A stretch of 64,000 nucleotides of DNA from contig BDSI01000097.1 of NCBI GenBank assembly GCA_003117195.1, forward strand, positions 418,788-482,787. Direction: 5' to 3'. The position numbers were made by a program, and so were the translations under genes. Origin of the DNA: Eudorina sp. 2006-703-Eu-15. Its lineage: Eukaryota > Chlorophyta > Chlorophyceae > Chlamydomonadales > Volvocaceae. Below the pieces are notes generated by a model. The model had not been told where the DNA came from. It saw nothing but the letters and a program-made list of their open reading frames with translations, and made no database searches. Of this stretch, positions 29,001 to 64,000 are shown piece after piece. Position 1 is the stretch's first letter. Each line of letters starts with the position of its first letter.

Positions 29001-29630
29001 CGCGCGCGGACGTACTGCTCGTCCCGACAGCGCTGACGCACTGGACGGTGGCGGAGGTGGCGGAGGAGGAGACCGCGAGCCCTCCCACCTGGAGCCGCAA
29101 CGCCAAGCTGGGCCGCTTCACCAACTTTGTCAACCTGCTGGACATGTGCGGCATTGCCGTACCGTCGGGATTGGTGTCGTACGATTCATCTGCTCTGCAC
29201 GAGGTGAGTCCCACGTCCGTAAAGTGGTACTTCAGGTTGCTGTACGGCTTGCTGCCTTACCGTATGTGGCGCGTCGGCACCATCCACCGTTGATCCGCGA
29301 CTCTACCTAAGGCTTCCGGGTTCACTTTTTAAAAATTCGAAATCTCAACGCTACCGAACTGACCTTTGTGGGCGCCGCGCTTACTAAACTATCCCGGTGC
29401 CGCTCTTACTACTGTCCCAGGGCGCCTCGGAGGCGGAGCGGCGGCGAGCAGCCCACCTGGCCGCCACCGGGCCCTCGACTGTGACGCTGCCCTTCGGTGT
29501 GACCCTGTTGGCCAAGGCGTGGCGAGACGAGTGGCTGTGGGACGTGGCTGCGAAGCTGGAGGCGCTGTCTGGGCTCAAGTGCGGACCCGTGGGTCACGGC
29601 GTGACGCCGGTGGTCGGGGACACGCGGTGA
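26081..29630 (+). CDS. DUR2: Allophanate hydrolase (amidase signature family)
   Basis: Six exons: 26081-26408, 26957-27220, 27623-27841, 28280-28576, 28923-29203, 29421-29630. Total 1599 nt, 532 residues, all GT-AG. It hydrolyses allophanate made by DUR1 to ammonium and CO2. The Ser-cisSer-Lys triad is visible: K75 in PFAIKDN, the Gly/Ser motif at 147-154 (SGGSSSGS) with the cis-Ser, and nucleophile S174 in GTDTAGSGR. The start MSQDNLDL is chosen because homologous sequence begins there; an in-frame ATG at 26018 would add 21 residues. The protein stops soon after the amidase fold (TLPFGVTLLAKAWRDEWL), so the separate C-terminal domain found in many bacterial and fungal allophanate hydrolases is absent. 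The exon 2 donor was set at 27221 because only that site keeps STVGVVPAC in frame. Confidence 0.94.
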
Positions 29631-36382: not shown

Positions 36383-39300
36383 ATGGCCTCAGCAGCCTGC
36401 ACAACTTTCCTTTCAAACTTTAACAACTTTCCTAAGTATGATCAACGTTGTTCCTTCTTCGAGAAGGGCGGTGAGTTGTTGCAACAACATTTAGGGTTGT
36501 CTGGAGTCAGGCATTGCCCCTTTCTTATGTATGTCAAACATTTTGTTCTACTGCCGGGCGTGATCGAGCGGGTTTTGTTACATGTCTGCAGGCGACACCG
36601 CTTTGCCTCAGGGTTTGGGTTGGTTCATCCTTGTGGGGCTCGGCGCCGTCTTCTCATTGATCCCGACGTTCCTCGTTTGGTTCGATAAGTGAGTCGTATA
36701 AGATGACTGAAAGCGATTGTCACCTGGCAGCCACGTGCATGCATATTAACCGCTTGACAACGAGTTTCCTGTTGCATTCTTGTTTTCCAAGGATGGGGAC
36801 TTGTCTGCTAACTTCTTGTTATTCCAAGAACCACTCACATACTTCCTTTGCGCTTTAACATGGCAGGCGATACGGCGGAGGTGCAAAGGGCTCGGAGAAC
36901 TTCTCTACGGCTGGACGCAGCATCAAGGCGGGTCTGACCGCTTGCGACATCGTCGCCAAGTGGACTTGGGCTGCGACACTTCTGCAATCTTCGAACGTCG
37001 CATGGTCCTTCGGCGTCTCTGGTCCTTTCTGGTATGCCGCAGGTACGTGTTGCCAACTTTGGTATTGATGCTAGTCATTGAGACTCGCATGTTATAAGCT
37101 TTGCGTTCGATGATATCTGTTTCCGTTCGGTGATTTCTGCATGTCGATGTGTGGCTCCCACTGTTGCGCTCTCGTCTCTGTATCCGCGGTGCCGTTGTGT
37201 CTGCACCGCCCGCGTCGCGTACCTGCGCGGTACTGACTGGCGTTGTGGCCCCGCTCGAACCCTTTGCTCCCTCTCCGTGCAGGCGCCACTGTGCAGGTGC
37301 TCCTCTTCGCCATCCTGGCCGTGGAGGTCAAGCGCAAGGCCCCCACCATTCACACCTTCCTGGAGATCATCCGCTGCCGCTGGGGCACCGTCACCCACAT
37401 CATCTTCATCGTCTACGGTTTCCTGACCAACATCATCGTCACTGCTATGCTCATCCTGGGTGGTGCTTCCGTGATGGAGGCCCTGACCGGCGTGTCCGTC
37501 TACGCCTCGTCCTTCCTCATCCCCGCGGGTGTGGTCATCTACACGGCCGTGGGCGGCCTGAAGGGTACCGTCGTGGCCGAGTGGCTCAACGTCTGCGTCA
37601 TCTACCTGGCGCTGCTCATCTTCATGTTCCAAGTGTACGCCACCCACAAAGATCTTGGCTCGATCTCCGCGGTGTACACTCACCTCACCACCGCGGCCAA
37701 GTACCACCCCGTGGCCGATAACATGGGCGGCTCATACATTACCATGTTTTCCAAGTCGGGCATCATCTTCGGCATCATCAACATTATTGGTGAGTTGATT
37801 GTGGGGGAATGTGAATTTTGAGCGCTGTATGATGTCGTGCAAGTATTAACGTCTGCTGCCTCTCTAGCTAAGCCAGGTGTGTGGGGCAAGTTAACAATAA
37901 GAACAGTAATACTACATTGGGCAAACCCTAGCGTACAAAGGTGGCAGGGACGGTGAGGTACCTTCGTGTGCTCAAAGATTTCGGACCAGGTGGCCACTCG
38001 AATCTAAACCTGTGTCCGACTGCCGTCCACAGGCAACTTCGGCACAGTGTTCGTGGACCAGTCCTACTGGCAGGGCGCCATCGCCGCCAAGCCCTCCGCC
38101 ACATACCGCGGCTACCTGCTGGGCGGCCTGTGCTGGTTCGCCATCCCCTTCACCTTCGCCACCACCATGGGCCTGGGCGCGCGCGCGCTGGACCTCCCGC
38201 TGACCAAAGCGGAGGCCAACCAGGGCCTGGTTCCCGCTGCTCTGGCCGTTCACCTGATGGGCCAGGGCGGCGCGTTCCTGATGACCTTCCAGCTGTTCAT
38301 GGTGAGCCGGGTGTACTCATGTGGGTTGGGGGCCTTCAGCGGGGACGTGCTGGGCGGGCTTGAAAACTTCGTCCTTGATCCAACGCGGATGTCTGCTGCT
38401 GGCATTGTCTGATGTATTTGGAGGATAAGGTAAGCGGGCGTCGTGTCGTTGCGGGATCTGCGAGTGTACTGTTTAGGTTGCTGTGATGCAACCTTTGCAC
38501 AAACTCACACCCGTTATCGGTGGGTTGCTTGTTTAACACACCCGTTTCGTGTGCTGCCCTCTAACAGCATCCGCCTGCGTGCCGTTTCCTTCCGAACTGC
38601 AGGCCGTCACCGCCACCGCCTGCGCGGAGCAGATGGCCGTCGCCACAATCGTCGCGTACGACATCTACAAGCCGTACATCAACCGCAACGCCGACGGCCG
38701 CACCATGATTAACCTGCAGCGTGTGATGGTCGTGGTGTACGCCATCGTCTCTGGTGTCGTGTCCGTCATCCTGCTGAAGCTCAATGTGTCCCTGGGCTGG
38801 GTGTACCTCTTCATGGGCATTGTCATCGGCTCCGCCGTGTTCCCGATTGCCGCCGCACTGACCTGGAACAAGTGCTCAGCCATCGCTGCCAGCGTTTCAG
38901 CCATCGTGACCACCCCACTGGCGATCATGACCTGGCTCATCACCGCTGCCAAGCTCAACGACGGCGTGATCAACCTCGACACCACTGGCCAGGACTACCC
39001 CATGTTGGCTGGTAACCTGGTGGCCCTCTTCTTCTCGATGATCCTCTGCATCATCTTGTCGTACATCTTCCCCCAGGTTCGTACGCAGCGATCGACATGC
39101 AGTCAATGGCGACGGTTGGGGTGCATGCGCATGTCACATGGTTCTTAGCTCGGGGGTTCTGGATGGACTGCAGGAGGCACCACTGATTCGCTGGCTTCTC
39201 TATTGTGCGCCCCTGCATTCTGGATTCAAGACATATAACTCACCATGCATGCTCTGTGCTCTTTTTCCTCCCGACAGAACTTCGACTGGGCCGAGCTTCG

Positions 39301-41962: not shown

Positions 41963-44900
41963 GTCCAACAGTACTTCCCGAAGGACTAGGGTGGTTCATC
42001 CTCGTTGGGCTCGGTGCCGTGTTCGCGTGCATACCGACGGTCTTGATCTGGCTGGACAGGTGGGCAAGTCCAAAATCATCCCTGTCGCAGTTTTTCGCGT
42101 TGCGGTACGACCGGTTCGGCGGGTCCCCCAAGGCCACGTCTCTCGTAGCACCACCGCAGATCACGACACGCAACCCGACGCCTGAAGGTCCTGGGTAATC
42201 AGGATCCATTGCTTTCACCTAAACCCTTCGCGGCGCGTCTGTTCGGTTTGTTGCCGGTCAGCCGCACGCCGCGGCGCTACCTCCATGCCCTGTCCTGGCC
42301 CTTAACAGTCTATTGACCCTCGGCTGTCACCGATCCGCCACGCCCCGCAGGCGCTTCGGCGGCTTCGGTCGGGACTCGGAGAGCTTCTCAACGGCGGGGC
42401 GCAGCATCAAAGCCGGTCTCACCGCTTGCGACATCGTGGCCAAATGGACGTGGGCGGCCACGCTGCTGCAGTCGGCCAACGTGGCGTACTCCTTCGGCGT
42501 GTCGGGGCCGTTCTGGTATGCCGCAGGTGAATACGGCCACAGTACGGAAGGGTGCCCGCCGTGGGTTCGTTCAGCGGGGAAACTCCTGCAGCGGTGCAGG
42601 AGGATCGCGCGCGTGCGCGGCCTCCTGCCCGGTGCAGTCGCGTAGGAAAGCGAGGGGGGATCCGCAGCCGCTTGGGGTTTCGCGCGAAAGCCAGTAACGT
42701 ACCGGAACCCTGGGGGTTTCGAGAGCAAATCCAGAACCTACCGGAACCCAGTCGCCGGGTCTGCACCGCTATCGGGGGATTGTCGCACGATCCCGCTGAT
42801 GACTCGTAAGGGGTCCACGTCCAACAGGCACGGATACTGACTGGCGCGTGGGTTGCAACCCGGGGGTCGGGCTGCAATAGGGTTGATGACCGATGTTTGT
42901 GGCGGCCCCATCCACCTGCACGTGTGTTTACCCATAAATCCGCCCGAACCAGCTGATTGTGGCGGCCCCGCCCATCGCATGTACGCACCACAAGCAACCA
43001 CACATCTGCTCGTGTGTGCTCGGGGTCGGTAGAACGTGGTCACCGGCCTGGTGTGCTTGCAAGCCAGAGGGTGATGGGTAACCATGTGCGGTCCCAGGAG
43101 GGTGCTGTTGGGGGACTGAGCCGCGGACAGGCAGCCGGTGTCGGGTCACGGGTCTTCAACCTCGGGGCCAGCTACGGTTACTGGTCCAGGGGGGGCTGCC
43201 GGGGCAGGTGGCTGCAAGGCGAGTTGTGCAGGGCACACGTGCACTGGTGTAATACGGCACGTACTTGGTGAATAAGAAAACGGGGCCGCGAGAACCGGAC
43301 GTACCTACTTGGTGTGTCTCTCAGTGCAAGTGGACCAGCATTCCAGGGGTGGGCTATTTGCGTTTGCTGGTGTGTTGGGCTGCTCAGCCAGATGACGCGC
43401 TTCGATACGCATGGCCCCACCAAACCCGTCACCCGTCACCCGTCACGAGAATCACTACACACCGCATCAACGAGTCACAAATCCCGCGCAATGTGCGGCG
43501 TGTTCGTTAAGGGCGGGAATGGAGCCGCGCTCAGTATGGGGTCACACATTCACGCGCGCACATGCACACACACACGCCCGGGCGACCACAGCCTTCGCTT
43601 CTCAGCACGCAGCTCTGGCAGTTGGGTTGTTCGCGCAGTCCTCCAACGCCCGCCTAGCCTGTCTTGAGCAGGTCAAGCCGTTGCGTCTCACACCTATTTT
43701 AACGCCCCCTCATACCCGTTCCTTCTGCCGGCCTTGATGCCGCCCTTCCCTCTTCCTTTTTCCCCGTTCCTGCAGGCGCCACCGTCCAGGTGCTCCTCTT
43801 CGCCATCCTGGCCGTCGAGATCAAGCGCAAGGCCCCCACCATCCACACCTTCCTGGAGATCATCCGCTGCCGCTGGGGCACCACCGCCCACATCATTTTC
43901 ACGTTGTACGGTTTCCTGACCAACATCATCGTTACCGCTATGCTCATTCTGGGTGGTGCCGCGGTGATGGAGGCCCTGTCGGGTGTGTCCGTGTACGCCG
44001 CGTCCTTCCTCATCCCCGCGGGTGTCGTCATGTACACGGCCGTGGGCGGCCTGAAGGGAACTGTTGTGGCCGAGTGGCTGAACGTCTGCGTCATCTACAT
44101 CGTGATGCTGGTCTTCATGTTCCAAGTAAGTGCGTGTGAACGACCATCTATCCAACATATTATCGTTGGTACGTATTTGTCGCAGGGCTGGGTGTGTCTG
44201 GGCTGTTTCTTCTTAACAAGCCACCCGAGACCCGACAGGTCTTGGCGGTGCCACAGGCCAGCTGCCCTGCCTTCGTTACAGTGTGAATGGAGCGGAATGA
44301 GCTCCAGATTCTTATGCTCACAGGGTGCTTTGCTTGCACTCTCATCAAACGGCACTTGCACCCTACAAATCGCACTGATAGCCGCACGCAATGATCAGTC
44401 CGCGGAAGTGGACGGCAATGCAATGCGGTGCGCATAGCGCATTGCGGTGCTTCCGCCCTGTAAGCGCCCGCTGCCACGCAGCTCCTTTCCACCCACCCGC
44501 ACCGCCCTCATCCATTCAACCCTCCTCCACCCATCCCGTCATCAACCGTCCATCCATCCGCCCACATGCACCGACCCCGGACAGGTCTACGCCACCAACA
44601 ACGATCTTGGATCCATTGCAACGGTGTACATGCGGCTGCGGGTGGTGGAGATAAAGCACCCGGTGGCAGACAACATGGGCGGCTCCTACGTCACCATGTT
44701 CTCGAAGTCGGGCATCATCTTCGGTATCATCAATATCATCGGTGCGGCCCGGTGTTAGGCTGGGGGTTGTATCAATAATGATACATGCAGGGGTGGTATG
44801 GGGAATGACTGGGCGCGTGGATGGGGCGGAGACTAGGCCGCTCGGTAGCTCAGTGTCCAATCACGCCCCTCCGTGATTAGATCGGCTCAATGCGTCGGTG

Positions 44901-49430: not shown

Positions 49431-51032
49431 CGAGGGCAGATAGTCGCAGCGGGCGCTCGTTGGCAGATAGATAGCGTAGATAGGTGCAGCGTAGGCAGGG
49501 GGCGCATTGCGCCCGACCAAGCACGTGCATGTTTACCCGTGGCACTCATCGGCTCGCTGTTGATGATAGATAATGTATGTACCGTATATAAATGATATAT
49601 AACTTTCAGCTAGGGTTCAAAGTGATGATACTAATGATACTTGCATGGACGACGGCTCGAGCTGCCCCAGCAGCTGCTGAAGGATGTTGCGCCGATTGCG
49701 TCAATCGATTACTTCGGGCGACCATGCGAAACGGCTATCGCCGCCGTCTGGCTGAGGCGGGTCATTCATCCTGTTGGGACGCTCGGCCCAGCCTCCGCCC
49801 ACCCGATATGGATGAACGGAAGCGCGCGCGGCTTAATCCACGTACAGGGGTGTGATCAGGGTTTCAGGTTAGGATGAACGAGACTAGGCTTGAAACTTCA
49901 ACGAGCTGCATGGCGGGGGTTTGATGCGGTAGAACGAACGAGGCAAGGAGAACGCAAGCGATCTGGACGGTTTGGGTGCGTGCGGCATGCAGATGGCTGC
50001 TGCGGTCGGTGGTTGGGCGTACGTGCAGTTTACAGACAGCCGTTACAGGCCGGCGTGGTCCCTCATGGTCCCTCGTGGTCCTATATTTCGCCACGGCAGG
50101 TAGGCTATTATTCGTGCGAGAGAGTCAGGTGCTTGACCCCGTTGCTCTCCCGTAGCTTTCAGGCATGTATGTACGTACAAGTTGGCCCCTTACTTGCGCT
50201 CGAAGGCGCGAATTGCGCAGTGAGTTGTTGATGTTTTGGATCGAAACAGGAGCCGGGAACGGTGTCGCTCCGTCGGTAACATGTGGCGTTAGTTCGGTGG
50301 GACGCACGGGCTTGAAACCGGCTGACACACATTCATGTGCCCGTGGACGAAGCATAGCTACGGTATCAACAACTACGTAATCAATGGCTGTGGCGGATGT
50401 GCAATAATCTTTGTCTTTAGCAAAAGTTGATACACCTTGTGCCAGCTGAGCCGTCGTTTGCATTGTGTCGATCGGTTCTGTGTAACTGTCTCCCGTAACT
50501 GTCGCTTGTGGCTGGGGCTGACTGGCCAATCGTGGCAAAATATCGTTTCCGAGATGAGTTCGGCGGGACTGGGGGCTGCTGCCAAGGGCCCTGACACAGC
50601 AAAGCCTAACGCTTGCCGCGCGGCACAACACCCAACCCCGTAGCGACGGGGGGCCGCCGCGGAACCTACACACACGCGGCGCTCCACACCAGGCGACCTT
50701 GCACGACGCACCGCGAGTCCGCGACGGGCGCCGAGGCCCGACAGAACCGAACGGCAGCGCAACGGCACGAGAACAACCACAAGCCCAAGCCGGCACTGAC
50801 GAAGGGGCCCCAGCCCGTCATGGTCGGCCCCATGGAGCCAGTCGCAACCGCCAACCCAACCTCCAGACCCCCCCAAACATCCCTGTCCTCATCACCAACA
50901 CACGCGCCCCCTCGGGTGACGCGCCAGGGCCTGCACGGATGGCGCCCTCTCGGGTGACGCGCCAGGGCCCACCAGCAGGCCCAGTCGCATGGCTCCATCG
51001 GATCTGAGTTAAGATGTAGGGTTGGCCAGGTT
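49431..51032. other. Intergenic between DUR3B and the tRNA array
   Basis: No gene recognised. A TGTAA at 50481-50485 could end the DUR3B transcript. At 50914-50970 a 28-31 bp element containing GGTGACGCGCCAGGGCC occurs twice in tandem, shortly before the array begins. Confidence 0.5.
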
Positions 51033-51056
51033 GATTCTTACCCCATGTCCAAGCTA

Positions 51057-51156
51057 ATCAGTTAGGCTCGCCTGCACAGGTTCGACTGCGATGGTGATCA
51101 GCCTCATCCGAGGCGAAGTGCAGTCGTGCCCGAGTGGTTAAGGGGACTGACTTGAA
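51057..51156 (+). pseudogene. Permuted tRNA-Ser(UGA), unit 1, T-arm deleted
   Basis: 3' half 51057-51090, 5' half 51120-51156, anticodon TGA 51153-51155. The 3' half lacks ten bases relative to its siblings: TTCG runs straight into ACTGC. This removes the 3' part of the T loop, the T-stem 3' strand and the first acceptor base pairs. A deletion between two TCGA repeats explains it. The product could not fold, so this edge copy is dead. Confidence 0.85.
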
Positions 51157-51517
51157 GACACGGGGTGGGGAGCGGTATCCATGCTTAGTCAGTGCTAAGC
51201 TCATACCAAACAAACACATACTCTTGTTCCTCGCCTCTGACTGACACTTGCAAAGGTTTTCTCGATGTGCTGACATTATATATGCTGCACAGCTGGTAGA
51301 TAGGTTGTCAGGCACCGTTGGTGGTTTGTCCCGTTGTAGTCCCGGAGCTGGTCGATTATGACGTACAGTTGTTGTATCGCAGGCGATCGTACAGTCATTT
51401 TGGCTGCTATTGGTATGGCAACGCAAGCGAAGCTCGACGTTCTTCTCTTTCTCTCCAAGACCGAGGCGGCGTGAGCTTATTGCCTTAGCTTCCGAGCAAT
51501 ATATAGAGAGCCAGGGG

Positions 51518-51532
51518 TCATGTAACATGACA
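51518..51532. repeat. Perfect 6-bp-arm palindrome GTCATGTAACATGAC in the array spacer
   Basis: Inverted repeat with a 3-nt centre, present at the same place in every unit (e.g. about 54322, 57125, 59911, 62876). Function unknown; it could be a hairpin in a spacer transcript or a protein-binding site. Confidence 0.6.
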
Positions 51533-52276
51533 GGATACGAGGAGGGACCAGTCGCCGTCCCTGACCGGCACGGCGATGCCTGGCAGTTTAGCACAGCTAC
51601 TGTCAACAATGTCAGCGCCTGTGCGGGCAGGACCCGTCACAGGCAGGGAATCCGGTGGCAGGCCTCCGCGAGCCTATGCTCCTTGACTCCTCAGCTAGGG
51701 CAGTTGACAAACAGAGCTGAGTGAGCAACCAAGAAAGAAGTCGGATCTGTGATGATACGTTTGGCAGTGTATGTATCACTTGAGGTGGTGTATCGCTTGA
51801 GGCGGTGTATTGCTTGTCTCATGGGCAGCGCAAAGCAACGCAGGTCGGTATGGGGGGGTCAGTCGCGGCTTCTGATGTGATGGTGCCTTGTGCGCGCAGA
51901 GGACGGACCCCGCCTGTTGGTCAACCGTGACAGCCGACACCTCCTCGCACACATGCCATGCACACACCGTCCCGTGTCTAATGAACCCTCATGGGGGCCT
52001 GACAAGGTCGCCTCGTACTGCTGGACACCCCGCCGTTTTATTATCAGTGATGCCTATGCCAGCGTGGCTGTAACCTTTCCAATGACATGCCTGCCTGCGG
52101 TTGCCATCATTGCCGTCGCAATGCCAGGCTGCCAGGGTGTGCGATGACGCTGAGCGTGCCCCAACGGGGCCCGCAGTGTCCACCACGCACGTGTAGAGCG
52201 AGGGGCAGACGCTACGGGTAGCGTTGGGGTCGGCGCTGTAACATCCCTATTGCATACCTGTGGGCCTTGCACTGGC

Positions 52277-52393
52277 ATCAGTTAGGCTTGCCTGCACAGG
52301 TTCGAATCCTGTCGACTGCGATATCTATCCAGGTCACCTGGAAACATGCCATCAAGGCAGTCGTGCCCGAGTGGTTAAGGGGACTGACTAGAA
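52277..52393 (+). tRNA. Permuted tRNA-Ser(AGA), unit 1
   Basis: 3' half 52277-52320, intervening 52321-52356, 5' half 52357-52393; anticodon AGA 52390-52392 (read as IGA after editing, for UCU/UCC). Anticodon stem ACTGA pairs with the upstream TCAGT, acceptor GCAGTCG with the upstream CGACTGC. The 36-nt intervening piece folds as CCAGGT/ACCTGG. For the join, CTAG over the anticodon pairs with CTGG in the leader (one U-G), then TGC/GCA and GGCCC/GGGCC: the closest of the three types to a 4-bp bulge-helix-bulge. Confidence 0.9.
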
Positions 52394-52825
52394 TGCGAAG
52401 AGGCCCGTTATGCCGCATCCAATATATGGAAGTAATATGAGTCACACGCGTCAGGGACTCAGAGTGCGGCAAGCTAGAATCATCACGCTCAGCAAACGCA
52501 AATGGGGCAGGATGGCACTGTCCAGACCGAAAACAAATTAACCAAACATGTCCCGCCCTTACATGCGTCCCCACAAACTCTACAACTTATTCCATTCATC
52601 AATGCCGATGGTGCCCTACTCCCCTAGCTGCTTCCATCATGATATCTTGAAGGGTTGGCGGAGAGTTGTGTACATGTACATGGAGATGGACATGTATGGG
52701 AAGACCCCCATCCTCGCCTGCGGCCAGCACGCGAGTGTGTGGTTCGTCTGGCCATATGTCACGGATGGATGTGAGGTGATGCCATGTGTCCGAAATCGTC
52801 TCCTCTCTACCTCCCGACCCATGAC

Positions 52826-52936
52826 ATCAGATAGGCTTGCCTGCATAGGTTCGAATCCTGTCGACCGCGAATCCTGGAGAGTCTCTGTCTCCATATGATG
52901 CGGTCGTGCCCGAGTGGTTAAGGGGTCTGACTCGAA
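52826..52936 (+). tRNA. Permuted tRNA-Ser(CGA), unit 1
   Basis: 3' half 52826-52869, intervening 52870-52899, 5' half 52900-52936; anticodon CGA 52933-52935 for UCG. Differs from the UGA and AGA types by two paired changes, each shared between the upstream 3' half and the downstream 5' half: 27-43 is U-A (TCTGA/TCAGA) and 3-70 is G-C (GCGGTCG/CGACCGC). The intervening hairpin is GGAGA/TCTCC. Leader-trailer pairing is looser (ATGG/CCAT, CGGG/CCCG). Confidence 0.9.
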
Positions 52937-53852
52937 TGGAACGGGGTAGCTGACAAGGGAGGACATTTTCTTGTATAGTTCTTACTTCAACCCCGCTGAT
53001 TGTGATGGTTGTATTTTTGATTCAATTATCTCTCGAGACATGCTGAACGTGAGGTGGCCACTCATCAGTTCTATCTCTTTATCCATGTCAAGGCTCTTTT
53101 GAGGTTGATCTGCTCATTACAACCTTGCCTATGTATTCTACCTGCTGAACACAAAAGCTGAAGGTGGGCATACAAGCTTGGCTAAGCTTATCACATATGT
53201 ATCACTATGACCTAGCTACAAACACTGTGTTTGCAGGCGGTTGGAGGTGTGTGGAGATACCCTACAGTAATTATCTGCGAGGTAGGTATCAGTAATTATC
53301 TGCGAGGACCAAAAACAAGTATGACGAAAATAAATATGTAATTTACATCATACCTAAAAACAGTATTGAATAAAACAGTTCACAAACATTTACATTTTGT
53401 GTGGCAGTATGCATGGTAGTGCGTGGCATGGATCACATGTGATGCCTACCAGCATGTAGACACCTAACCCCAGCGGCACCTTGCCGACATTACATCAGCA
53501 GAGCAGCCTTGTACAAGTTGCACTATAATGCAGCGTGTGGGAACAAAAAAGAACACGGGCCAGAAGTGCCAGCTGGCACAAGCGTCTGGCGTGACCAGTT
53601 ACAATCCAAAATAATCCAAATCCAAAAGTACGGTACTAATGCACCAAGGAGTCATGCACCGGATGAAGATTATTAGTCATCAGCAGGACACCGGGGAAGT
53701 ATGTCACCCACCCTAGGCTCTAGAATCCGGGCGTGCCTAGTAATGGCCATGCGTTGGGCTCAGGGTGCAGGCGAGGGCCACGCGCCTTCACATGGAGGTT
53801 GTATAACGATGATTTGGAGGATCTACTCGATTCTTGCCCCATGTTCAAGCTA

Positions 53853-53962
53853 ATCAGTTAGGCTCGCCTGCACAGGTTCGAATCCTGTCGACTGCGATGG
53901 TGATCAGCCTCATCCGAGGCGAAGTGCAGTCGTGCCCGAGTGGTTAAGGGGACTGACTTGAA
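53853..53962 (+). tRNA. Permuted tRNA-Ser(UGA), unit 2, intact reference copy
   Basis: The 3' half comes first, 53853-53896: A38, TCAGT (39-43), long variable arm with AGGC/GCCT, T arm ACAGG-TTCGAAT-CCTGT, acceptor CGACTGC and discriminator G73, all serine-type. A 29-nt intervening piece (53897-53925) with hairpin GCCTC/GAGGC follows. The 5' half, 53926-53962, is acceptor GCAGTCG, U8, D arm CCC/GGG with AGTGGTTAA loop, anticodon stem ACTGA, C32, U33, anticodon TGA at 53959-53961 and A37. Joining 37 to 38 gives a perfect cloverleaf with a 7-nt anticodon loop and a fully paired acceptor. The trailer CTTGAA...GGGG pairs with the leader CCCC...TTCAAG, so the anticodon is buried in a helix flanked by bulges, as in spliced pre-tRNAs. 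No CCA is encoded. The B box precedes the A box; TTTT follows about 100 nt downstream. Confidence 0.93.
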
Positions 53963-55081
53963 GATACGGGGTGGGGAGTGGTATCCATGCTTAGTCAGTG
54001 CTAAGCTCATACCAGACAAACACATACTCTTGTTCCTCGCCTCTGACTGACACTTGCAAAGGTTTTCTCGATGTGCTGACATTATATATGCTGCACAGCT
54101 GGTAGATAGGTTGTCAGGCACCGTTGGTGGTTTGTCCCGTTGTAGTCCCGGAGCTGGTCGATTATGACGTACAGTTGTTGTATCGCAGGCAATCGTACAG
54201 TCATTTTGGCTGCTATTGGTATGGCAACGCAAGCGAAGCTCGACGTTCTTCTCTTTCTCTCCAAGACCGAGGCGGCGTGAGCTTATTGCCTTGCTTCCGA
54301 GCAATATATAGACAGCCAGGGGTCATGTAACATGACAGGATACGAGGAGGGACCAGTCGCCGTCCCTGACCGGCACGGCGATGCCTGGCAGTTAAGCACA
54401 GCTACTGTCAACAATGTCAGCGCCTGTGCGGGCAGGACCCGTCACAGGCAGGGAATCCGGTGGCAGGCCTCCGCGAGCCTATGCTCCTTGACTCCTCAGC
54501 TAGGGCAGTTGGCAAACAGAGCTGAGTGAGCAACCAAGAAAGAAGTCGGATCTGTGATGATACGTTTGGCAGTGTATGTATCACTTGAGGTGGTGTATCG
54601 CTTGAGGCGGTGTATTGCTTGTCTCATGGGCAGCGCAAAGCAACGCAGGTCGGTATGGGGGGGTCAGTCGCGGCTTCTGATGTGATGGTGCCTTGTGCGC
54701 GCAGAGGACGGACCCCGCCTGTTGGTCAACCGTGACAGCCGACACCTCCTCGCACACATGCCATGCACACACCGTCCCGTGTCTAATGAACCCTCATGGG
54801 GGCCTGACAAGGTCGCCTCGTACTGCTGGACACCCCGCCGTTTTATTATCAGTGATGCCTATGCCAGCGTGGCTGTAACCTTTCCAATGACATGCCTGCC
54901 TGCGGTTGCCATCATTGCCGTCGCAATGCCAGGCTGCCAGGGTGTGCGATGACGCTGAGCGTGCCCCAACGGGGCCCGCAGTGTCCACCACGCACGTGTA
55001 GAGCGAGGGGCAGACGCTACGGGTAGCGTTGGGGTCGGCGCTGTAACATCCCTATTGCATACCTGTGGGCCTTGCACTGGC

Positions 55082-55198
55082 ATCAGTTAGGCTTGCCTGC
55101 ACAGGTTCGAATCCTGTCGACTGCGATATCTATCCAGGTCACCTGGAAACATGCCATCAAGGCAGTCGTGCCCGAGTGGTTAAGGGGACTGACTAGAA
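55082..55198 (+). tRNA. Permuted tRNA-Ser(AGA), unit 2
   Basis: 3' half 55082-55125, intervening 55126-55161, 5' half 55162-55198, anticodon AGA 55195-55197. Identical to the unit 1 AGA locus over the mature tRNA. No run of four T follows closely, so its pol III terminator is unclear. Confidence 0.9.
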
Positions 55199-55630
55199 TG
55201 CGAAGAGGCCCGTTATGCCGCATCCAATATATGGAAGTAATATGAGTCACACGCGTCAGGGACTCAGAGTGCGGCAAGCTAGAATCATCACGCTCAGCAA
55301 ACGCAAATGGGGCAGGATGGCACTGTCCAGACCGAAAACAAATTAACCAAACATGTCCCGCCCTTACATGCGTCCCCACAAACTCTACAACTTATTCCAT
55401 TCATCAATGCCGATGGTGCCCTACTCCCCTAGCTGCTTCCATCATGATATCTTGAAGGGTTGGCGGAGAGTTGTGTACATGTACATGGAGATGGACATGT
55501 ATGGGAAGACCCCCATCCTCGCCTGCGGCCAGCACGCGAGTGTGTGGTTCGTCTGGCCATATGTCACGGATGGATGTGAGGTGATGCCATGTGTCCGAAA
55601 TCGTCTCCTCTCTACCTCCCGACCCATGAC

Positions 55631-55741
55631 ATCAGATAGGCTTGCCTGCATAGGTTCGAATCCTGTCGACCGCGAATCCTGGAGAGTCTCTGTCTCCATA
55701 TGATGCGGTCGTGCCCGAGTGGTTAAGGGGTCTGACTCGAA
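55631..55741 (+). tRNA. Permuted tRNA-Ser(CGA), unit 2
   Basis: 3' half 55631-55674, intervening 55675-55704, 5' half 55705-55741, anticodon CGA 55738-55740. Intact. A TTTT about 30 nt past the 5' half could end the transcript. The T stem keeps one U-G pair (ATAGG/CCTGT), shared by all CGA copies. Confidence 0.9.
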
Positions 55742-56656
55742 TGGAACGGGGTAGCTGACAAGGGAGGACATTTTCTTGTATAGTTCTTACTTCAACCCCG
55801 CTGATTGTGATGGTTGTATTTTTGATTCAATTATCTCTCGAGACATGCTGAACGTGAGGTGGCCACTCATCAGTTCTATCTCTTTATCCATGTCAAGGCT
55901 CTTTTGAGGTTGATCTGCTCATTACAACCTTGCCTATGTATTCTACCTGCTGAACACAAAAGCTGAAGGTGGGCATACAAGCTTGGCTAAGCTTATCACA
56001 TATGTATCACTATGACCTAGCTACAAACACTGTGTTTGCAGGCGGTTGGAGGTGTGTGGAGATACCTACAGTAATTATCTGCGAGGTAGGTATCAGTAAT
56101 TATCTGCGAGGACCAAAAACAAGTATGACGAAAATAAATATGTAATTTACATCATACCTAAAAACAGTATTGAATAAAACAGTTCACATACATTTACATT
56201 TTGTGTGGCAGTATGCATGGTAGTGCGTGGCATGGATCACATGTGATGCCTACCAGCATGTAGACACCTAACCCCAGCGGCACCTTGCCGACATTACATC
56301 AGCAGAGCAGCCTTGTACAAGTTGCACTATAATGCAGCGTGTGGGAACAAAAAAGAACACGGGCCAGAAGTGCCAGCTGGCACAAGCGTCTGGCGTGACC
56401 AGTTACAATCCAAAATAATCCAAATCCAAAAGTACGGTACTAATGCACCAAGGAGTCATGCACCGGATGAAGATTATTAGTCATCAGCAGGACACCGGGG
56501 AAGTATGTCACCCACCCTAGGCTCTAGAATCCGGGCGTGCCTAGTAATGGCCATGCGTTGGGCTCAGGGTGCAGGCGAGGGCCACGCGCCTTCACATGGA
56601 GGTTGTATAACGATGATTTGGAGGATCTACTCGATTCTTGCCCCATGTTCAAGCTA

Positions 56657-56765
56657 ATCAGTTAGGCTCGCCTGCACAGGTTCGAATCCTGTCGACTGCG
56701 ATGGTGATCAGCCTCATCCGAGGCGAAGTGCAGTCGTGCCGAGTGGTTAAGGGGACTGACTTGAA
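56657..56765 (+). tRNA. Permuted tRNA-Ser(UGA), unit 3, one base short in D stem
   Basis: 3' half 56657-56700, 5' half 56730-56765, anticodon TGA 56762-56764. The D-arm reads TGCCGAGTGG instead of TGCCCGAGTGG, losing one of three D-stem C residues, also within the A box. Either a damaged copy or a homopolymer sequencing error. Confidence 0.75.
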
Positions 56766-57883
56766 GATACGGGGTGGGGAGTGGTATCCATGCTTAGTCA
56801 GTGCTAAGCTCATACCAGACAAACACATACTCTTGTTCCTCGCCTCTGACTGACACTTGCAAAGGTTTTCTCGATGTGCTGACATTATATATGCTGCACA
56901 GCTGGTAGATAGGTTGTCAGGCACCGTTGGTGGTTTGTCCCGTTGTAGTCCCGGAGCTGGTCGATTATGACGTACAGTTGTTGTATCGCAGGCAATCGTA
57001 CAGTCATTTTGGCTGCTATTGGTATGGCAACGCAAGCGAAGCTCGACGTTCTTCTCTTTCTCTCCAAGACCGAGGCGGCGTGAGCTTATTGCCTTGCTTC
57101 CGAGCAATATATAGACAGCCAGGGGTCATGTAACATGACAGGATACGAGGAGGGACCAGTCGCCGTCCCTGACCGGCACGGCGATGCCTGGCAGTTAAGC
57201 ACAGCTACTGTCAACAATGTCAGCGCCTGTGCGGGCAGGACCCGTCACAGGCAGGGAATCCGGTGGCAGGCCTCCGCGAGCCTATGCTCCTTGACTCCTC
57301 AGCTAGGGCAGTTGGCAAACAGAGCTGAGTGAGCAACCAAGAAAGAAGTCGGATCTGTGATGATACGTTTGGCAGTGTATGTATCACTTGAGGTGGTGTA
57401 TCGCTTGAGGCGGTGTATTGCTTGTCTCATGGGCAGCGCAAAGCAACGCAGGTCGGTATGGGGGGTCAGTCGCGGCTTCTGATGTGATGGTGCCTTGTGC
57501 GCGCAGAGGACGGACCCCGCCTGTTGGTCAACCGTGACAGCCGACACCTCCTCGCACACATGCCATGCACACACCGTCCCGTGTCTAATGAACCCTCATG
57601 GGGGCCTGACAAGGTCGCCTCGTACTGCTGGACACCCCGCCGTTTTATTATCAGTGATGCCTATGCCAGCGTGGCTGTAACCTTTCCAATGACATGCCTG
57701 CCTGCGGTTGCCATCATTGCCGTCGCAATGCCAGGCTGCCAGGGTGTGCGATGACGCTGAGCGTGCCCCAACGGGGCCCGCAGTGTCCACCACGCACGTG
57801 TAGAGCGAGGGGCAGACGCTACGGGTAGCGTTGGGGTCGGCGCTGTAACATCCCTATTGCATACCTGTGGGCCTTGCACTGGC

Positions 57884-58000
57884 ATCAGTTAGGCTTGCCT
57901 GCACAGGTTCGAATCCTGTCGACTGCGATATCTATCCAGGTCACCTGGAAACATGCCATCAAGGCAGTCGTGCCCGAGTGGTTAAGGGGACTGACTAGAA
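57884..58000 (+). tRNA. Permuted tRNA-Ser(AGA), unit 3
   Basis: 3' half 57884-57927, intervening 57928-57963, 5' half 57964-58000, anticodon AGA 57997-57999. Intact and identical to the other AGA loci. Confidence 0.9.
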
Positions 58001-58431
58001 TGCGAAGAGGCCCGTTATGCCGCATCCAATATATGGAAGTAATATGAGTCACACGCGTCAGGGACTCAGAGTGCGGCAAGCTAGAATCATCACGCTCAGC
58101 AAACGCAAATGGGGCAGGATGGCACTGTCCAGACCGAAAACAAATTAACCAAACATGTCCCGCCCTTACATGCGTCCCACAAACTCTACAACTTATTCCA
58201 TTCATCAATGCCGATGGTGCCCTACTCCCCTAGCTGCTTCCATCATGATATCTTGAAGGGTTGGCGGAGAGTTGTGTACATGTACATGGAGATGGACATG
58301 TATGGGAAGACCCCCATCCTCGCCTGCGGCCAGCACGCGAGTGTGTGGTTCGTCTGGCCATATGTCACGGATGGATGTGAGGTGATGCCATGTGTCCGAA
58401 ATCGTCTCCTCTCTACCTCCCGACCCATGAC

Positions 58432-58542
58432 ATCAGATAGGCTTGCCTGCATAGGTTCGAATCCTGTCGACCGCGAATCCTGGAGAGTCTCTGTCTCCAT
58501 ATGATGCGGTCGTGCCCGAGTGGTTAAGGGGTCTGACTCGAA
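58432..58542 (+). tRNA. Permuted tRNA-Ser(CGA), unit 3
   Basis: 3' half 58432-58475, intervening 58476-58505, 5' half 58506-58542, anticodon CGA 58539-58541. Intact. Confidence 0.9.
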
Positions 58543-59442
58543 TGGAACGGGGTAGCTGACAAGGGAGGACATTTTCTTGTATAGTTCTTACTTCAACCCG
58601 CTGATTGTGATGGTTGTATTTTTGATTCAATTATCTCTCGAGACATGCTGAACGTGAGGTGGCCACTCATCAGTTCTATCTCTTTATCCATGTCAAGGCT
58701 CTTTTGAGGTTGATCTGCTCATTACAACCTTGCCTATGTATTCTACCTGCTGAACACAAAAGCTGAAGGTGGGCACACAAGCTGGGCTCAGCTTATCACA
58801 TATGTATCACTATGACCTAGCTACAAACACTGTGTTTGCAGGCGGTTGGAGGTGTGTGGAGATAGTCTACTGCGTGGTAGGTATCAGTAATTATCTGCGA
58901 GGACCAAAAACAAGTATGACGAAAATAAATATGTAATTTACATCATACCTAAAAACAGTATTGAATAAAACAGTTCACATTCATTTACATTTTGTGTGGC
59001 AGTATGGTAGTGCGTGGCATGGATCACATGTGATGCCTACCAGCATGTAGACACCTAACCCCAGCGGCACTTTGCCGACATTACATCAGCAGAGCAGCCT
59101 TGTACAAGTTGCACTATAATGCAGCGTGTGGGAACAAAAAAGAACACGGGCCAGAAGTGCCAGCTGGCACAAGCGTCTGGCGTGACCAGTTACAATCCAA
59201 AATAATCCAAATCCAAAAGTACGGTACTAATGCACCAAGGAGTCATGCACCGGATGAAGATTATTAGTCATCAGCAGGACACCGGGAAGTATGTCACCCA
59301 CCCTAGGCTCTAGAATCCGGGCGTGCCTAGTAATGGCCATGCGTTGGGCTCAGGGTGCAGGCGAGGGCCACGCGCCTTCACATGAAGGTTGTATAACGAT
59401 GGTTTGGAGGATCTACTCGATTCTTGCCCCATGTCCAAGCTA

Positions 59443-59552
59443 ATCAGTTAGGCTCGCCTGCACAGGTTCGAATCCTGTCGACTGCGATGGTGATCAGCCT
59501 CATCCGAGGCGAAGTGCAGTCGTGCCTGGGTGGTTAAGGGGACTGACTTGAA
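59443..59552 (+). tRNA. Permuted tRNA-Ser(UGA), unit 4, altered D arm
   Basis: 3' half 59443-59486, 5' half 59516-59552, anticodon TGA 59549-59551. The D arm reads TGCCTGGGTGG: C12 becomes U and the near-invariant A14 becomes G. Loss of A14 breaks the U8-A14 tertiary pair and changes the A box, so function is doubtful. Confidence 0.75.
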
Positions 59553-60668
59553 GACACGGGGTGGGGAGCGGTATCCATACTTAGTCAGTGCTAAGCTCAT
59601 ACCAAACAAACACATACTCTTGTTCCTCGCCTCTGACTGACACTTGCAAAGGTTTTCTCGATGTGCTGACATTATATATGCTGCACAGCTGGTAGATAGG
59701 TTGTCAGGCACCGTTGGTGGTTTGTCCCGTTGTAGTCCGGAGCTGGTCGATTATGACGTACAGTTGTTGTATCGCAGGCGATCGTACAGTCATTTTGGCT
59801 GCTATTGGTATGGCAACGCAAGCGAAGCTCGACGTTCTTCTCTTTCTCTCCAAGACCGAGGCGGCGTGAGCTTATTGCCTTGCTTCCGAGCAATATATAG
59901 ACAGCCAGGGGTCATGTAACATGACAGGATACGAGGAGGGACCAGTCGCCGTCCCTGACCGGCACGGCGATGCCTGCAGTTTAGCACAGCTACTGTCAAC
60001 AATGTCAGCGCCTGTGCGGGCAGGACCCGTCACAGGCAGGGAATCCGGTGGCAGGCCTCCGCGAGCCTATGCTCCTTGACTCCTCAGCTAGGGCAGTTGG
60101 CAAACAGAGCTGAGTGAGCAACCAAGAAAGAAGTCGGATCTGTGATGATACGTTTGGCAGTGTATGTATCACTTGAGGTGGTGTATCGCTTGAGGCGGTG
60201 TATTGCTTGTCTCATGGGCAGCGCAAAGCAACGCAGGTCGGTATGGGGGGTCAGTCGCGGCTTCTGATGTGATGGTGCCTTGTGCGCGCAGAGGACGGAC
60301 CCCGCCTGTTGGTCAACCGTGACAGCCGACACCTCCTCGCACACATGCCATGCACACACCGTCCCGTGTCTAATGAACCCTCATGGGGGCCTGACAAGGT
60401 CGCCTCGTCCTGCTGGACACCCCGCCGTGTTATTATCAGTGATGCCTATGCCAGCGTGGCTGTAACCTTTCCAATGACATGCCTGCCTGCGGTTGCCATC
60501 ATTGCCGTCGCAATGCCAGGCTGCCAGGGTGTGCGATGACGCTGAGCGTGCCCCAACGGGGCCCGCAGTGTCCACCACGCACGTGTAGAGCGAGGGGCAG
60601 ACGCTACGGGTAGCGTTGGGGTCGGCGCTGTAACATCCCTGTTGCATACCTGTGGGCCTTGCACTGGC

Positions 60669-60785
60669 ATCAGTTAGGCTTGCCTGCACAGGTTCGAATC
60701 CTGTCGACTGCGATATCTATCCAGGTCACCTGGAAACATGCCATCAAGGCAGTCGTGCCCGAGTGGTTAAGGGGACTGACTAGAA
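60669..60785 (+). tRNA. Permuted tRNA-Ser(AGA), unit 4
   Basis: 3' half 60669-60712, intervening 60713-60748, 5' half 60749-60785, anticodon AGA 60782-60784. Intact. Confidence 0.9.
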
Positions 60786-61215
60786 TGCGAAGAGGCCCGT
60801 TATGCCGCATCCAATATATGGAAGTAATATGAGTCACACGCGTCAGGGACTCAGAGTGCGGCAAGCTAGAATCATCACGCTCAGCAAACGCAAATGGGGC
60901 AGGATGGCACTGTCCAGACCGAAAACAAATTAACCAAACATGTCCCGCCCTTACATGCGTCCCCACAAACTCTACAACTTATTCCATTCATCAATGCGAT
61001 GGTGCCCTACTCCCCTAGCTGCTTCCATCATGATATCTTGAAGGGTTGGCGAGAGTTGTGTACATGTACATGGAGATGGACATGTATGGGAAGACCCCCA
61101 TCCTCGCCTGCGGCCAGCACGCGAGTGTGTGGTTCGTCTGGCCATATGTCACGGATGGATGTAAAGTGATGCCATGTGTCCGAAATCGTCTCCTCTCTAC
61201 CTCCCGACCCATGAC

Positions 61216-61325
61216 ATCAGATAGGCTTGCCTGCATAGGTTCGAATCCTGTCGACCGCGAATCCTGGAGAGTCTCTGTCTCCATATGAAGCGGTCGTGCC
61301 CGAGTGGTTAAGGGTCTGACTCGAA
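61216..61325 (+). tRNA. Permuted tRNA-Ser(CGA), unit 4, one base short
   Basis: 3' half 61216-61259, intervening 61260-61289, 5' half 61290-61325, anticodon CGA 61322-61324. The run after the D loop has three G instead of four, so either D-stem pairing or G26 is lost. As in the unit 3 UGA copy, a homopolymer sequencing error is possible. Confidence 0.75.
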
Positions 61326-61990
61326 TGGAACGGGGTAGCTGACAAGGGAGGACATTTTCTTGCATAGTTCTTACTTCAACCCGCTGATTGTGATGGTTGT
61401 ATTTTTGATTCAATTATCTCTCGAGACATGCTGAACGCGAGGTGGCCACTCATCAGTTCTATCTCTTTATCCATGTCAAGGCTCTTTGAGGTTGATCTGC
61501 TCATTACAACCTTGCCTATGTATTCTACCTGCTGAACACAAAAGCTGAAGGTGGGCACACAAGCTGGCTCAGCTTATCACATATGTATCACTATGACCTA
61601 GCTACAAACACTGTGTTTGCAGGCGGTTGGAGGTGTGTGGAGATAGTCTACTGCGTGGTAGGTATCAGTAATTATCTGCGAGGACCAAAAACAAGTATGA
61701 CGAAAATAAATATGTAATTTACATCATACCTAAAAACAGTATTGAATAAAACAGTTCACATTCATTTACATTTTGTGTGGCAGTATGGTAGTGCGTGGCA
61801 TGGATCACATGTGATGCCTACCAGCATGTAGACACCTAACCCAGCGGCACTTTGCCGACATTACATCAGCAGAGCAGCCTTGTACAAGTTGCACTATAAT
61901 GCAGCGTGTGGGAACAAAAAGAACACGGGCCAGAAGTGCCAGCTGGCACAAGCGTCTGGCGTGACCAGTTACAATCCAAAATAATCCAAA

Positions 61991-62173
61991 ATTAGATTTT
62001 AGGTTAATCCGAAAATATGGTTTGCAGACGAGTTAACAGCCGTGCTTTGGTACGGGTACGGCAGAGGATGGGCCGTACTGTGACCACCGCTTGCGAGCCG
62101 CGCCGGGTTGAGCGGTAAATTGTTGCCGGTTTAGGCGTCGCGCCTTGCACTTCACGTGAGGAACCTTGGCGCT
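61991..62173. mobile_element. 183-bp insertion with 5-bp target duplication in unit 4
   Basis: Present only in unit 4. The other units read AATCCAAATCCAAAAG uninterrupted. Here CCAAA is duplicated on both sides (61986-61990 and 62174-62178) around a 183-bp segment starting ATTAGATTTT and ending CTTGGCGCT. The ends show no inverted repeats and there is no poly(A), so the element class is unknown; a short non-autonomous transposon is the likeliest reading. Confidence 0.7.
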
Positions 62174-62407
62174 CCAAATCCAAAAGTACGGTACTAATGC
62201 ACAAGGAGTCATGCACCGGATGAAGATTATTAGTCATCAGCAGGACACCGGGGAAGTATGTCACCCACCCTAGGCTCTAGAATCGGGCGTGCCTAGTAAT
62301 GGCCATGCGTTGGGCTCAGGGTGCAGGCGAGGCCACGCGCCTTCACATGGAGGTTGTATAACGATGGTTTGGAGGATCTACTCGATTCTTGCCCTATGTC
62401 CAAGCTA

Positions 62408-62517
62408 ATCAGTTAGGCTCGCCTGCACAGGTTCGAATCCTGTCGACTGCGATGGTGATCAGCCTCATCCGAGGCGAAGTGCAGTCGTGCCCGAGTGGTT
62501 AAGGGGACTGACTTGAA
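62408..62517 (+). tRNA. Permuted tRNA-Ser(UGA), unit 5
   Basis: 3' half 62408-62451, intervening 62452-62480, 5' half 62481-62517, anticodon TGA 62514-62516. Intact mature sequence. The leader has TCCAAG where unit 2 has TTCAAG, shortening the pairing over the anticodon to CTTG/CAAG, the usual 4-bp length. Confidence 0.92.
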
Positions 62518-63634
62518 GACACGGGGTGGGGAGCGGTATCCATGCTTAGTCAGTGCTAAGCTCATACCAAACAAACACATACTCTTGTTCCTCGCCTCTG
62601 ACTGACACTTGCAAAGGTTTTCTCGATGTGCTGACATTATATATGCTGCACAGCTGGAAGATAGGTTGTCAGGCACCGTTGGTGGTTTGTCCCGTTGTAG
62701 TCCCGAGCTGGTCGATTATGACGTACAGTTGTTGTATCGCAGGCGATCGTACAGTCATTTTGGCTGCTATTGGTATGGCAACGCAAGCGAAGCTCGACGT
62801 TCTTCTCTTTCTCTCCAAGACCGAGGCGGCGTGAGCTTATTGCCTTGCTTCCGAGCAATATATAGACAGCCAGGGGTCATGTAACATGACAGGATACGAG
62901 GAGGGACCAGTCGCCGTCCCTGACCGGCACGGCGATGCCTGGCAGTTTAGCACAGCTACTGTCAACAATGTCAGCGCCTGTGCGGGCAGGACCCGTCACA
63001 GGCAGGGAATCCGGTGGCAGGCCTCCGCGAGCCTATGCTCCTTGACTCCTCAGCTAGGGCAGTTGGCAAACAGAGCTGAGTGAGCAACCAAGAAAGAAGT
63101 CGGATCTGTGATGATACGTTTGGCAGTGTATGTATCACTTGAGGTGGTGTATCGCTTGAGGCGGTGTATTGCTTGGCTCATGGGCAGCGCAAAGCAACGC
63201 AGGTCGGTATGGGGGGTCAGTCGCGGCTTCTGATGTGATGGTGCCTTGTGCGCGCAGAGGACGGACCCCGCCTGTTGGTCAACCGTGACAGCCGACGCCT
63301 CCTCGCACACATGCCATGCACACACCGTCCCGTGTCTAACGAACCCTCATGGGGGCCTGACAAGGTCGCCTCGTACTGCTGGACACCCCGCCGTGTTATT
63401 ATCAGTGATGCCTATGCCAGCGTGGCTGTAACCTTTCCAATGACATGCCTGCCTGCGGTTGCCATCATTGCCGTCGCAATGCCAGGCTGCCAGGGTGTGC
63501 GATGACGCTGAGCGTGCCCCAACGGGGCCCGCAGTGTCCACCACGCACGTGTAGAGCGAGGGGCAGACGCTACGGGTAGCGTTGGGGTCGGCGCTGTAAC
63601 ATCCCTGTTGCATACCTGTGGGCCTTGCACTGGC

Positions 63635-63748
63635 ATCAGTTAGGCTTGCCTGCACAGGTTCGAATCCTGTCGACTGCGATATCTATCCAGGTCACCTGGA
63701 AACATGCCAAGGCAGTCGTGCCCGAGTGGTTAAGGGGACTGACTAGAA
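63635..63748 (+). tRNA. Permuted tRNA-Ser(AGA), unit 5, shorter intervening piece
   Basis: 3' half 63635-63678, intervening 63679-63711, 5' half 63712-63748, anticodon AGA 63745-63747. The intervening piece has lost three bases near its right end but keeps the CCAGGT/ACCTGG hairpin. The mature tRNA is unchanged, consistent with that region being discarded. Confidence 0.9.
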
Positions 63749-64000
63749 TGTGAAGAGGCCCGTTATGCCGCATCCAATATATGGAAGTAATATGAGTCAC
63801 ACGCGTCAGGGACTCAGAGTGCGGCAAGCTAGAATCATCACGCTCAGCAAACGCAAATGGGGCAGGATGGCACTGTCCAGACCGAAAACAAATTAACCAA
63901 ACATGTCCCGCCCTTACATGCGTCCCCACAAACTCTACAACTTATTCCATTCATCAATGCCGATGGTGCCCTACTCCCTAGCTGCTTCCATCATGATATC

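Follow-up and report, generated by a model that had tools for sequence, protein, structure and literature searches.

Evidence for a tandem array of circularly permuted serine tRNA genes in a Eudorina genome

A 64,000-nucleotide (nt) stretch of the genome of Eudorina sp. 2006-703-Eu-15 (hereafter the window; contig BDSI01000097.1, here C97:418788-482787) carries 14 serine transfer RNA (tRNA) loci with swapped halves on its plus strand, between positions 51057 and 63748. At all 14 loci the 3' half (A38-G73) comes first and is followed by a spacer and then by the 5' half (1-A37). The loci form head-to-tail units of about 2.8-3.0 kb (2785-2966 nt from copy to copy), with the constant order UGA, AGA, CGA and high identity between units, as in a tandem array. 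Very probably, judging from the sequence, this is the left end of an array of permuted tRNA-Ser genes, the halves of which would be spliced at 37/38 into a circle that is likely opened to give an ordinary tRNA-Ser. The left edge lies near 51032, and the array runs off the contig because position 64000 is the end of C97. A first-pass annotation of this DNA had described 14 such loci, with 29-36 nt between the halves, in a head-to-tail array starting at 51033. All 14 were found at those places, the order and the edge agreed, and the spacers measured 29 nt (UGA, five loci), 36 nt (AGA, four loci), 33 nt (the last AGA locus) and 30 nt (CGA, four loci).

Permuted reading of the 14 loci

After the halves had been rejoined, ARAGORN called 13 of the 14 sequences tRNA-Ser, with the anticodon AGA, CGA or TGA. 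Over the window as it stands, ARAGORN reported no linear tRNA and Rfam reported nothing at the gathering threshold, so that standard finders miss such genes. A scan of the whole window with self-joined tiles matched 13 of the 14 loci and gave, besides them, one isolated weak Pro call at 11490; the same scan on the reversed sequence gave no match. Out-of-phase placement of the intron led to several UGA tiles being misnamed Arg or Ile. The earlier statement that the joined halves are complete serine cloverleafs holds for the 13 sequences as far as the ARAGORN calls go, but only 10 of the 14 copies are intact.

We compared the pairing of each 5' half with its own upstream 3' half. In the acceptor and anticodon stems, 168 of 168 pairs were Watson-Crick. 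The CGA gene differs from the UGA and AGA genes at acceptor pair 3-70 and at anticodon-stem pair 27-43. In a set of six distinct mature sequences (four permuted and two linear), 143 of 144 cells were paired and 8 of 24 pairs showed changes on both sides; the covariation score was reached by none of 500 shuffles, a control that relatedness of the sequences can also exceed. Among the permuted genes alone, both sides had changed in four pairs, namely 3-70, 27-43, 28-42 and one pair of the variable arm, and the first three of these connect the upstream 3' half with the downstream 5' half. The pairing supports the 14 loci as genuine type II (37/38) circularly permuted tRNA-Ser genes, as the first-pass annotation had proposed, with compensatory changes linking the swapped halves.

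Two halves that lie apart, separated by a spacer, could also be those of split tRNAs, transcribed apart and joined in trans. Such trans-splicing is highly improbable here: the spacers, only 9-36 nt long in the array and the dispersed loci (see below), are free of T4 runs, and the outer flanks (leader and trailer) are the ones predicted to pair, as they would in a single permuted precursor.

Every 5' half of the array but the last precedes a further 3' half, 430-1120 nt downstream, and a linear gene with a long intron therefore had to be excluded. The loci would then be linear tRNA-Ser genes, their introns 430-1120 nt long, and their permuted look would arise from neighbouring copies in series. 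However, when the 5' halves were paired with the next downstream 3' half, only 140 of 156 pairs were Watson-Crick, 4 were G-U and 12 were mismatches, against no mismatch in 168 for the permuted arrangement. Three other contigs (C83, C87 and C45) hold one permuted gene each outside any array, and the linear Ser genes of the same genome have either no intron or one of 15 nt. We consider long introns ruled out, with hardly any probability left to them. Least credible of all is an assembly artefact: single-base homopolymer differences among copies do suggest residual sequencing error, but the same order of halves recurs on 12 contigs of the array and at the three dispersed loci, whose spacers are different, while the reversed-pattern controls gave 0.

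Genome-wide census and the supply of Ser(AGA)

The assembly (181.2 Mb, 3033 contigs) was searched for the exact permuted motif, defined as B box, gap and serine D loop. There were 81 matches with gaps of 22-52 and 113 with gaps of 53-83 (the first 100 of the 113 being listed), and the reversed motif gave none in either gap range. The genome-wide search that the first-pass annotation had suggested, done here by pattern, thus found array copies on 12 contigs, but the permuted genes are not confined to the array: among the matches listed there are three dispersed loci, C83 (AGA), C87 (AGA) and C45 (CGA), with spacers of 17, 31 and 9 nt, respectively. The bodies of C83 and C45 are identical to those of the array AGA and CGA genes (81/81 each) but their spacers differ from those of the array, and the flanks of C83 show about 60-68% aligned identity to the array flanks with free gaps. 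From the array AGA gene, C87 departs at four bases only, and these form two full compensatory pairs, 28-42 and a pair of the variable arm. Permuted UGA genes were found only in the array, among the matches listed. On C97 and on C148 the array borders non-array sequence, and the two borders are oriented relative to each other as opposite edges of one array should be; we infer that both belong to a single array, as its two edges. On C148 (L054, C148:266000-271999), the last full copy is followed by a Ser(UGA) relic, truncated and with substitutions, which mirrors the damaged first copy at 51057.

The motif was also matched five times in viral contigs, each time by adjacent complete linear tRNA genes; the motif alone is therefore no proof, and cloverleaf pairing is. 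Other permuted isotypes were sought with self-joined tiles over 36 other loci (105 kb). This gave 139 raw matches (reversed control 0), of which only clusters of at least two tiles were inspected, and these were tile-edge linear genes or weak long-intron calls. When the genome was searched by pattern for permuted genes that keep a standard A box and have a spacer of about 1-31 nt, 130 matches were obtained, with one for the reversed control; those listed were adjacent linear Glu-Asp genes, plus one match on C207 with an unpaired acceptor (by eye), and permuted genes of other isotypes, junctions or spacer lengths may have escaped these searches.

Linear serine genes were found for two of the three anticodons: Ser(CGA) on C30 and C34, in both cases interrupted at 37/38 by a 15-nt intron, and Ser(UGA) on C72, without an intron. 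Among the first 100 of 126 UGA and CGA 5' halves, only C30, C34 and C72 lay outside the array and C45. A genome-wide pattern for linear Ser(AGA) that left the D arm free and admitted introns of at most about 28 nt gave no match (reversed control 8). A pattern open to any intron gave 60 serine 5' halves whose position 34 is A or G (reversed control 1), and every one was AGA, 58 of them in the 12 array contigs and the other two on C83 and C87. By pattern, then, a linear gene was met for neither Ser(AGA) nor Ser(GGA), although a gene combining an unusual D arm with an unusual T arm or intron, or one lying in an assembly gap, would escape. The first-pass annotation had made the existence of linear UCN-serine genes a test of its proposal, and the outcome is divided, with none met for AGA but CGA and UGA genes present.

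Since linear CGA and UGA genes coexist with the array and linear AGA genes were not found, only AGA looks permuted-only; from the patterns searched, Ser(AGA) appears to be encoded by permuted genes alone in this genome. Eukaryotes generally read UCU and UCC with IGA. If AGA is permuted-only, the cell would likely cut and rejoin transcripts via a circle for an essential tRNA, and the permuted AGA genes would most likely supply the serine tRNA for UCU and UCC.

The 81-nt bodies of the permuted UGA and AGA genes share 79 identities, and those of the permuted CGA and AGA genes 75; permuted and linear CGA share 70, and permuted and linear UGA 64. These values fit one permutation, nearest to an intron-bearing Ser(CGA), followed by anticodon change. 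In a published model of origin, an intron-bearing gene duplicates and the outer halves are lost (PMC3978253), and the body identities agree with it as it is given there. Tentatively, as a possible rather than a probable account, Ser AGA (read as IGA, for UCU and UCC) would be supplied only via circular RNA, from a ribosomal DNA-like array and dispersed copies, and all permuted Ser genes would descend from one permuted intron-bearing Ser(CGA) whose anticodon then switched to AGA and UGA.

Predicted processing, transcription signals and possible function of the array

According to the mechanism that we propose, leader and trailer would pair into an intron-like helix presenting both 37/38 sites, as predicted by folding; the tRNA-splicing machinery would cut and join the transcript at 37/38 to form a circle; and the circle would then likely be opened at the acceptor stem to yield an ordinary tRNA-Ser. 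The array would be an amplified, homogenised form of the same permuted family. With the anticodon stem held, folding of leader and trailer gave shuffle p-values of 0.070 (array UGA), 0.007 (array AGA), 0.128 (array CGA), 0.020 (C83), 0.001 (C87) and 0.023 (C45). Combined over the six families, Fisher's p was 2e-6, an optimistic value given their shared ancestry. C32 lies opposite a G three bases before A38 (C32-G(-3)) in five families of the six (binomial p 0.005, for a pair chosen after looking). This is where the anticodon-intron (A-I) pair used by the eukaryotic splicing endonuclease lies. A-I pairs as such are described in the literature (PMC3978253). Two loci in the genome match the splicing-endonuclease family PF01974. 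There is also a hint of hairpins within the spacers, as modelled: one of 5-6 bp was predicted in each of the four spacers that exceed 25 nt (p 0.074, 0.017, 0.024 and 0.377) and in neither of the two short ones.

As transcription units, the dispersed copies look more complete than those of the array. Relative to A38, the dispersed genes have TATAT at -47 (C83), TATAT at -59 (C87) or ATAAAT at -52 (C45), and a T4-T5 run follows a trailer of 14, 14 and 8 nt, respectively. In the array, the first T4 lies 29 nt after the CGA genes. Pair 10-25 is C10-G25 in the permuted genes but G10-C25 in the linear serine genes. The A-box consensus has G10. The D stem is therefore retained and the A-box G10 lost in the permuted genes, which would fit transcription from an upstream promoter.

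Several observations weigh against functional permuted genes processed in this way. Linear UGA and CGA genes exist, and 4 of the 14 copies in the window are damaged. Unconstrained leader-trailer duplex energies were not significant for the array genes, some non-cognate duplexes were stronger than the cognate ones, the C32-G(-3) pair is missing in UGA, and all four central pairs of the bulge-helix-bulge motif in fixed register were found in none of the six families. TATAA at -51 is present in the window upstream of 4 of 5 UGA copies but of none of the nine AGA and CGA copies; the first T4 after the UGA genes is about 100 nt away, and there is none within 252 nt of the AGA genes. Nor was any excess conservation of the tRNA halves over the array spacer detectable: 14 of 243 sites were polymorphic in the halves and 101 of 2334 in the spacer (4.3%, with about 27 copies per site), and the leaders and trailers were more variable still (14/132; intervening sequences 3/95). 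The array gives no signal of selection because it is too homogeneous, and the function of its copies is neither supported nor excluded by this comparison.

On such grounds the array might be mostly an inert, homogenised repeat of permuted genes and pseudogenes, with C83, C87 and C45 as the only working genes. A TATA-like or AT-rich element 47-59 nt before A38 and a T4-T5 run after a trailer of 8-14 nt mark the dispersed copies, as such a division would predict; array AGA genes are without a nearby T4, edge copies at both ends of the array are damaged, and within the array the halves are no more conserved than the spacer. Nevertheless, the array AGA and CGA bodies are the same as the dispersed ones at all 81 positions, and their halves are polymorphic at just 3 of 162 sites (AGA 1/81 and CGA 2/81, against 11/81 for UGA), although the excess conservation is not significant. 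Permuted UGA is found only in the array, where most window copies have the TATAA element. Moreover, the Arg, Glu and His genes sampled from linear tRNA arrays of the same genome likewise have no T4 within 60 nt. An inert array is less likely than not; the permuted family is likely functional, and the individual array copies may be.

Linear tRNA tandem arrays of this genome have a unit of 3.5-4.2 kb with Lys, His, Glu, Asp (with a 10-nt intron), Gly and Arg genes, and a Glu-Asp pair makes up nearly every row listed of the 130 standard-A-box pattern matches. The dispersed Lys(CTT) genes (L026, L027, L028 and L031) have in common the motif CCACAAGCCG in their 3' flanks, no more than about 15 nt beyond the end of the gene, and a short repeat resembling a hairpin often comes after it.

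Relation to known systems and neighbouring features

Permuted tRNA genes have been described as rare and individual; a 2014 review counted 34 of them in six algae and one archaeon, with none in C. reinhardtii, and called their significance and origin unclear (PMC3978253). As far as its text was available to us, the genes of prasinophytes and of the Bigelowiella nucleomorph resemble those described here in having the 3' half first, the 37/38 junction and an ordinary mature body; their spacers are 5-64 nt long and they are often serine UCN isoacceptors, as here, but they are listed as individual genes and not as an array of three-gene units on 12 contigs with dispersed copies (PMC3978253). The pathway through a circular intermediate, published for red and green algae, was worked out in Cyanidioschyzon merolae, where most permuted genes have a TATA-like element upstream and a T-stretch downstream; the dispersed copies have both. 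In the parts consulted, C. merolae has several junction positions and no array is described, whereas only 37/38 occurs here (PMC3978253). Permuted tRNA genes are also known from Auxenochlorella, a trebouxiophyte and a core green alga, in which a first tRNAscan-SE pass missed them; unlike the genes here, they are not mentioned as a tandem array in the sections seen (PMC12633428). The list of known hosts in the first-pass annotation had left this genus out.

Entamoeba tRNA arrays consist of linear genes. They too are head-to-tail arrays of multi-gene units, according to the part of the source available (PMC2888827), and so are the linear tRNA arrays of this genome, which, unlike the array described here, are composed of linear genes. 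In the open-licence literature, as judged by titles and abstract openings, we met neither a tandem array of permuted tRNA genes nor a chlorophycean case, in line with the earlier claim that the array and its occurrence in a Chlamydomonas-like host are unreported. The genes are genuine type II permuted tRNA-Ser genes, in a new arrangement and in a host group that is new as far as the literature was searched.

Here, permuted genes are tandem-amplified, lie beside linear genes of the same isoacceptor family and are apparently the sole source of a needed tRNA. One organism would allow us to ask whether translation can be fully sustained by permuted genes, whether an exchange of the A and B boxes is compatible with transcription by RNA polymerase III, and whether permuted genes originate from duplicated genes with introns.

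The features of the window are collected in Table 1. Leaders and trailers of the remaining loci occupy positions equivalent to those of Ser(AGA) copy 1.

Table 1. Coordinates of the array, its gene halves and other features (window positions unless contigs are named)
Feature	Position	Strand	Remarks
Left end of tandem array	51033..64000	+	copy spacing, left edge, contig end
Ser(UGA) copy 1, 3' half	51057..51090	+	degenerate edge copy, T arm lacks 10 nt
Ser(UGA) copy 1, 5' half	51120..51156	+
Ser(AGA) copy 1, leader	52255..52276	+	predicted pairing with trailer 52394-52415
Ser(AGA) copy 1, 3' half (A38-G73)	52277..52320	+
Ser(AGA) copy 1, intervening sequence, 36 nt	52321..52356	+	predicted 6-bp hairpin
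Ser(AGA) copy 1, 5' half (1-A37)	52357..52393	+
Ser(AGA) copy 1, trailer	52394..52415	+
Ser(CGA) copy 1, 3' half	52826..52869	+
Ser(CGA) copy 1, intervening sequence, 30 nt	52870..52899	+	predicted 6-bp hairpin
Ser(CGA) copy 1, 5' half	52900..52936	+
Ser(UGA) copy 2, 3' half	53853..53896	+	TATAA 51 nt upstream
Ser(UGA) copy 2, intervening sequence, 29 nt	53897..53925	+	predicted 5-bp hairpin
Ser(UGA) copy 2, 5' half	53926..53962	+
Ser(AGA) copy 2, 3' half	55082..55125	+
Ser(AGA) copy 2, 5' half	55162..55198	+
Ser(CGA) copy 2, 3' half	55631..55674	+
Ser(CGA) copy 2, 5' half	55705..55741	+
Ser(UGA) copy 3, 3' half	56657..56700	+
Ser(UGA) copy 3, 5' half	56730..56765	+	D stem lacks one C (homopolymer base)
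Ser(AGA) copy 3, 3' half	57884..57927	+
Ser(AGA) copy 3, 5' half	57964..58000	+
Ser(CGA) copy 3, 3' half	58432..58475	+
Ser(CGA) copy 3, 5' half	58506..58542	+
Ser(UGA) copy 4, 3' half	59443..59486	+
Ser(UGA) copy 4, 5' half	59516..59552	+	two substitutions in D arm
Ser(AGA) copy 4, 3' half	60669..60712	+
Ser(AGA) copy 4, 5' half	60749..60785	+
Ser(CGA) copy 4, 3' half	61216..61259	+
Ser(CGA) copy 4, 5' half	61290..61325	+	lacks one G (homopolymer base)
Ser(UGA) copy 5, 3' half	62408..62451	+
Ser(UGA) copy 5, 5' half	62481..62517	+
Ser(AGA) copy 5, 3' half	63635..63678	+
Ser(AGA) copy 5, 5' half	63712..63748	+	spacer 33 nt
Urea-cluster exons	16420-21577	-
Urea-cluster exons	28700-29290, 37237-37818, 43703-44434	+
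Linear tRNA arrays	contigs C131, C419, C434, C499, C522, C570, C805 and others		loci L029, L030, L033-L035, L037-L050

The unit from 59443 to 62408 measures 2966 nt instead of about 2800 and holds about 165-180 nt of extra sequence at 61991-62175; spacings of about 2970 also occur on C603. After the UGA trailer, at 51173-51212 and in the repeats, there is a stem-loop-like sequence, GGTAT...GCTTAG...CTAAGC...ATACC (by eye).

Next to the array, exons encoding urea carboxylase domains and an amidase domain lie together with two SSF transporter exons, and the group resembles a urea-assimilation gene cluster. The pherophorin domain PF12499 gave 166 matches in the genome (150 of 335 candidates scored). 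The pherophorin count and the urea-cluster exons suggest a Chlamydomonadales-like alga, an order into which the range of genes with this domain and of the urea cluster presumably fits. At C211:90619-91380, a RuBisCO-large-like match lies inside an open frame of 3496 amino acids on a contig of nuclear size; elsewhere such matches were short fragments only.

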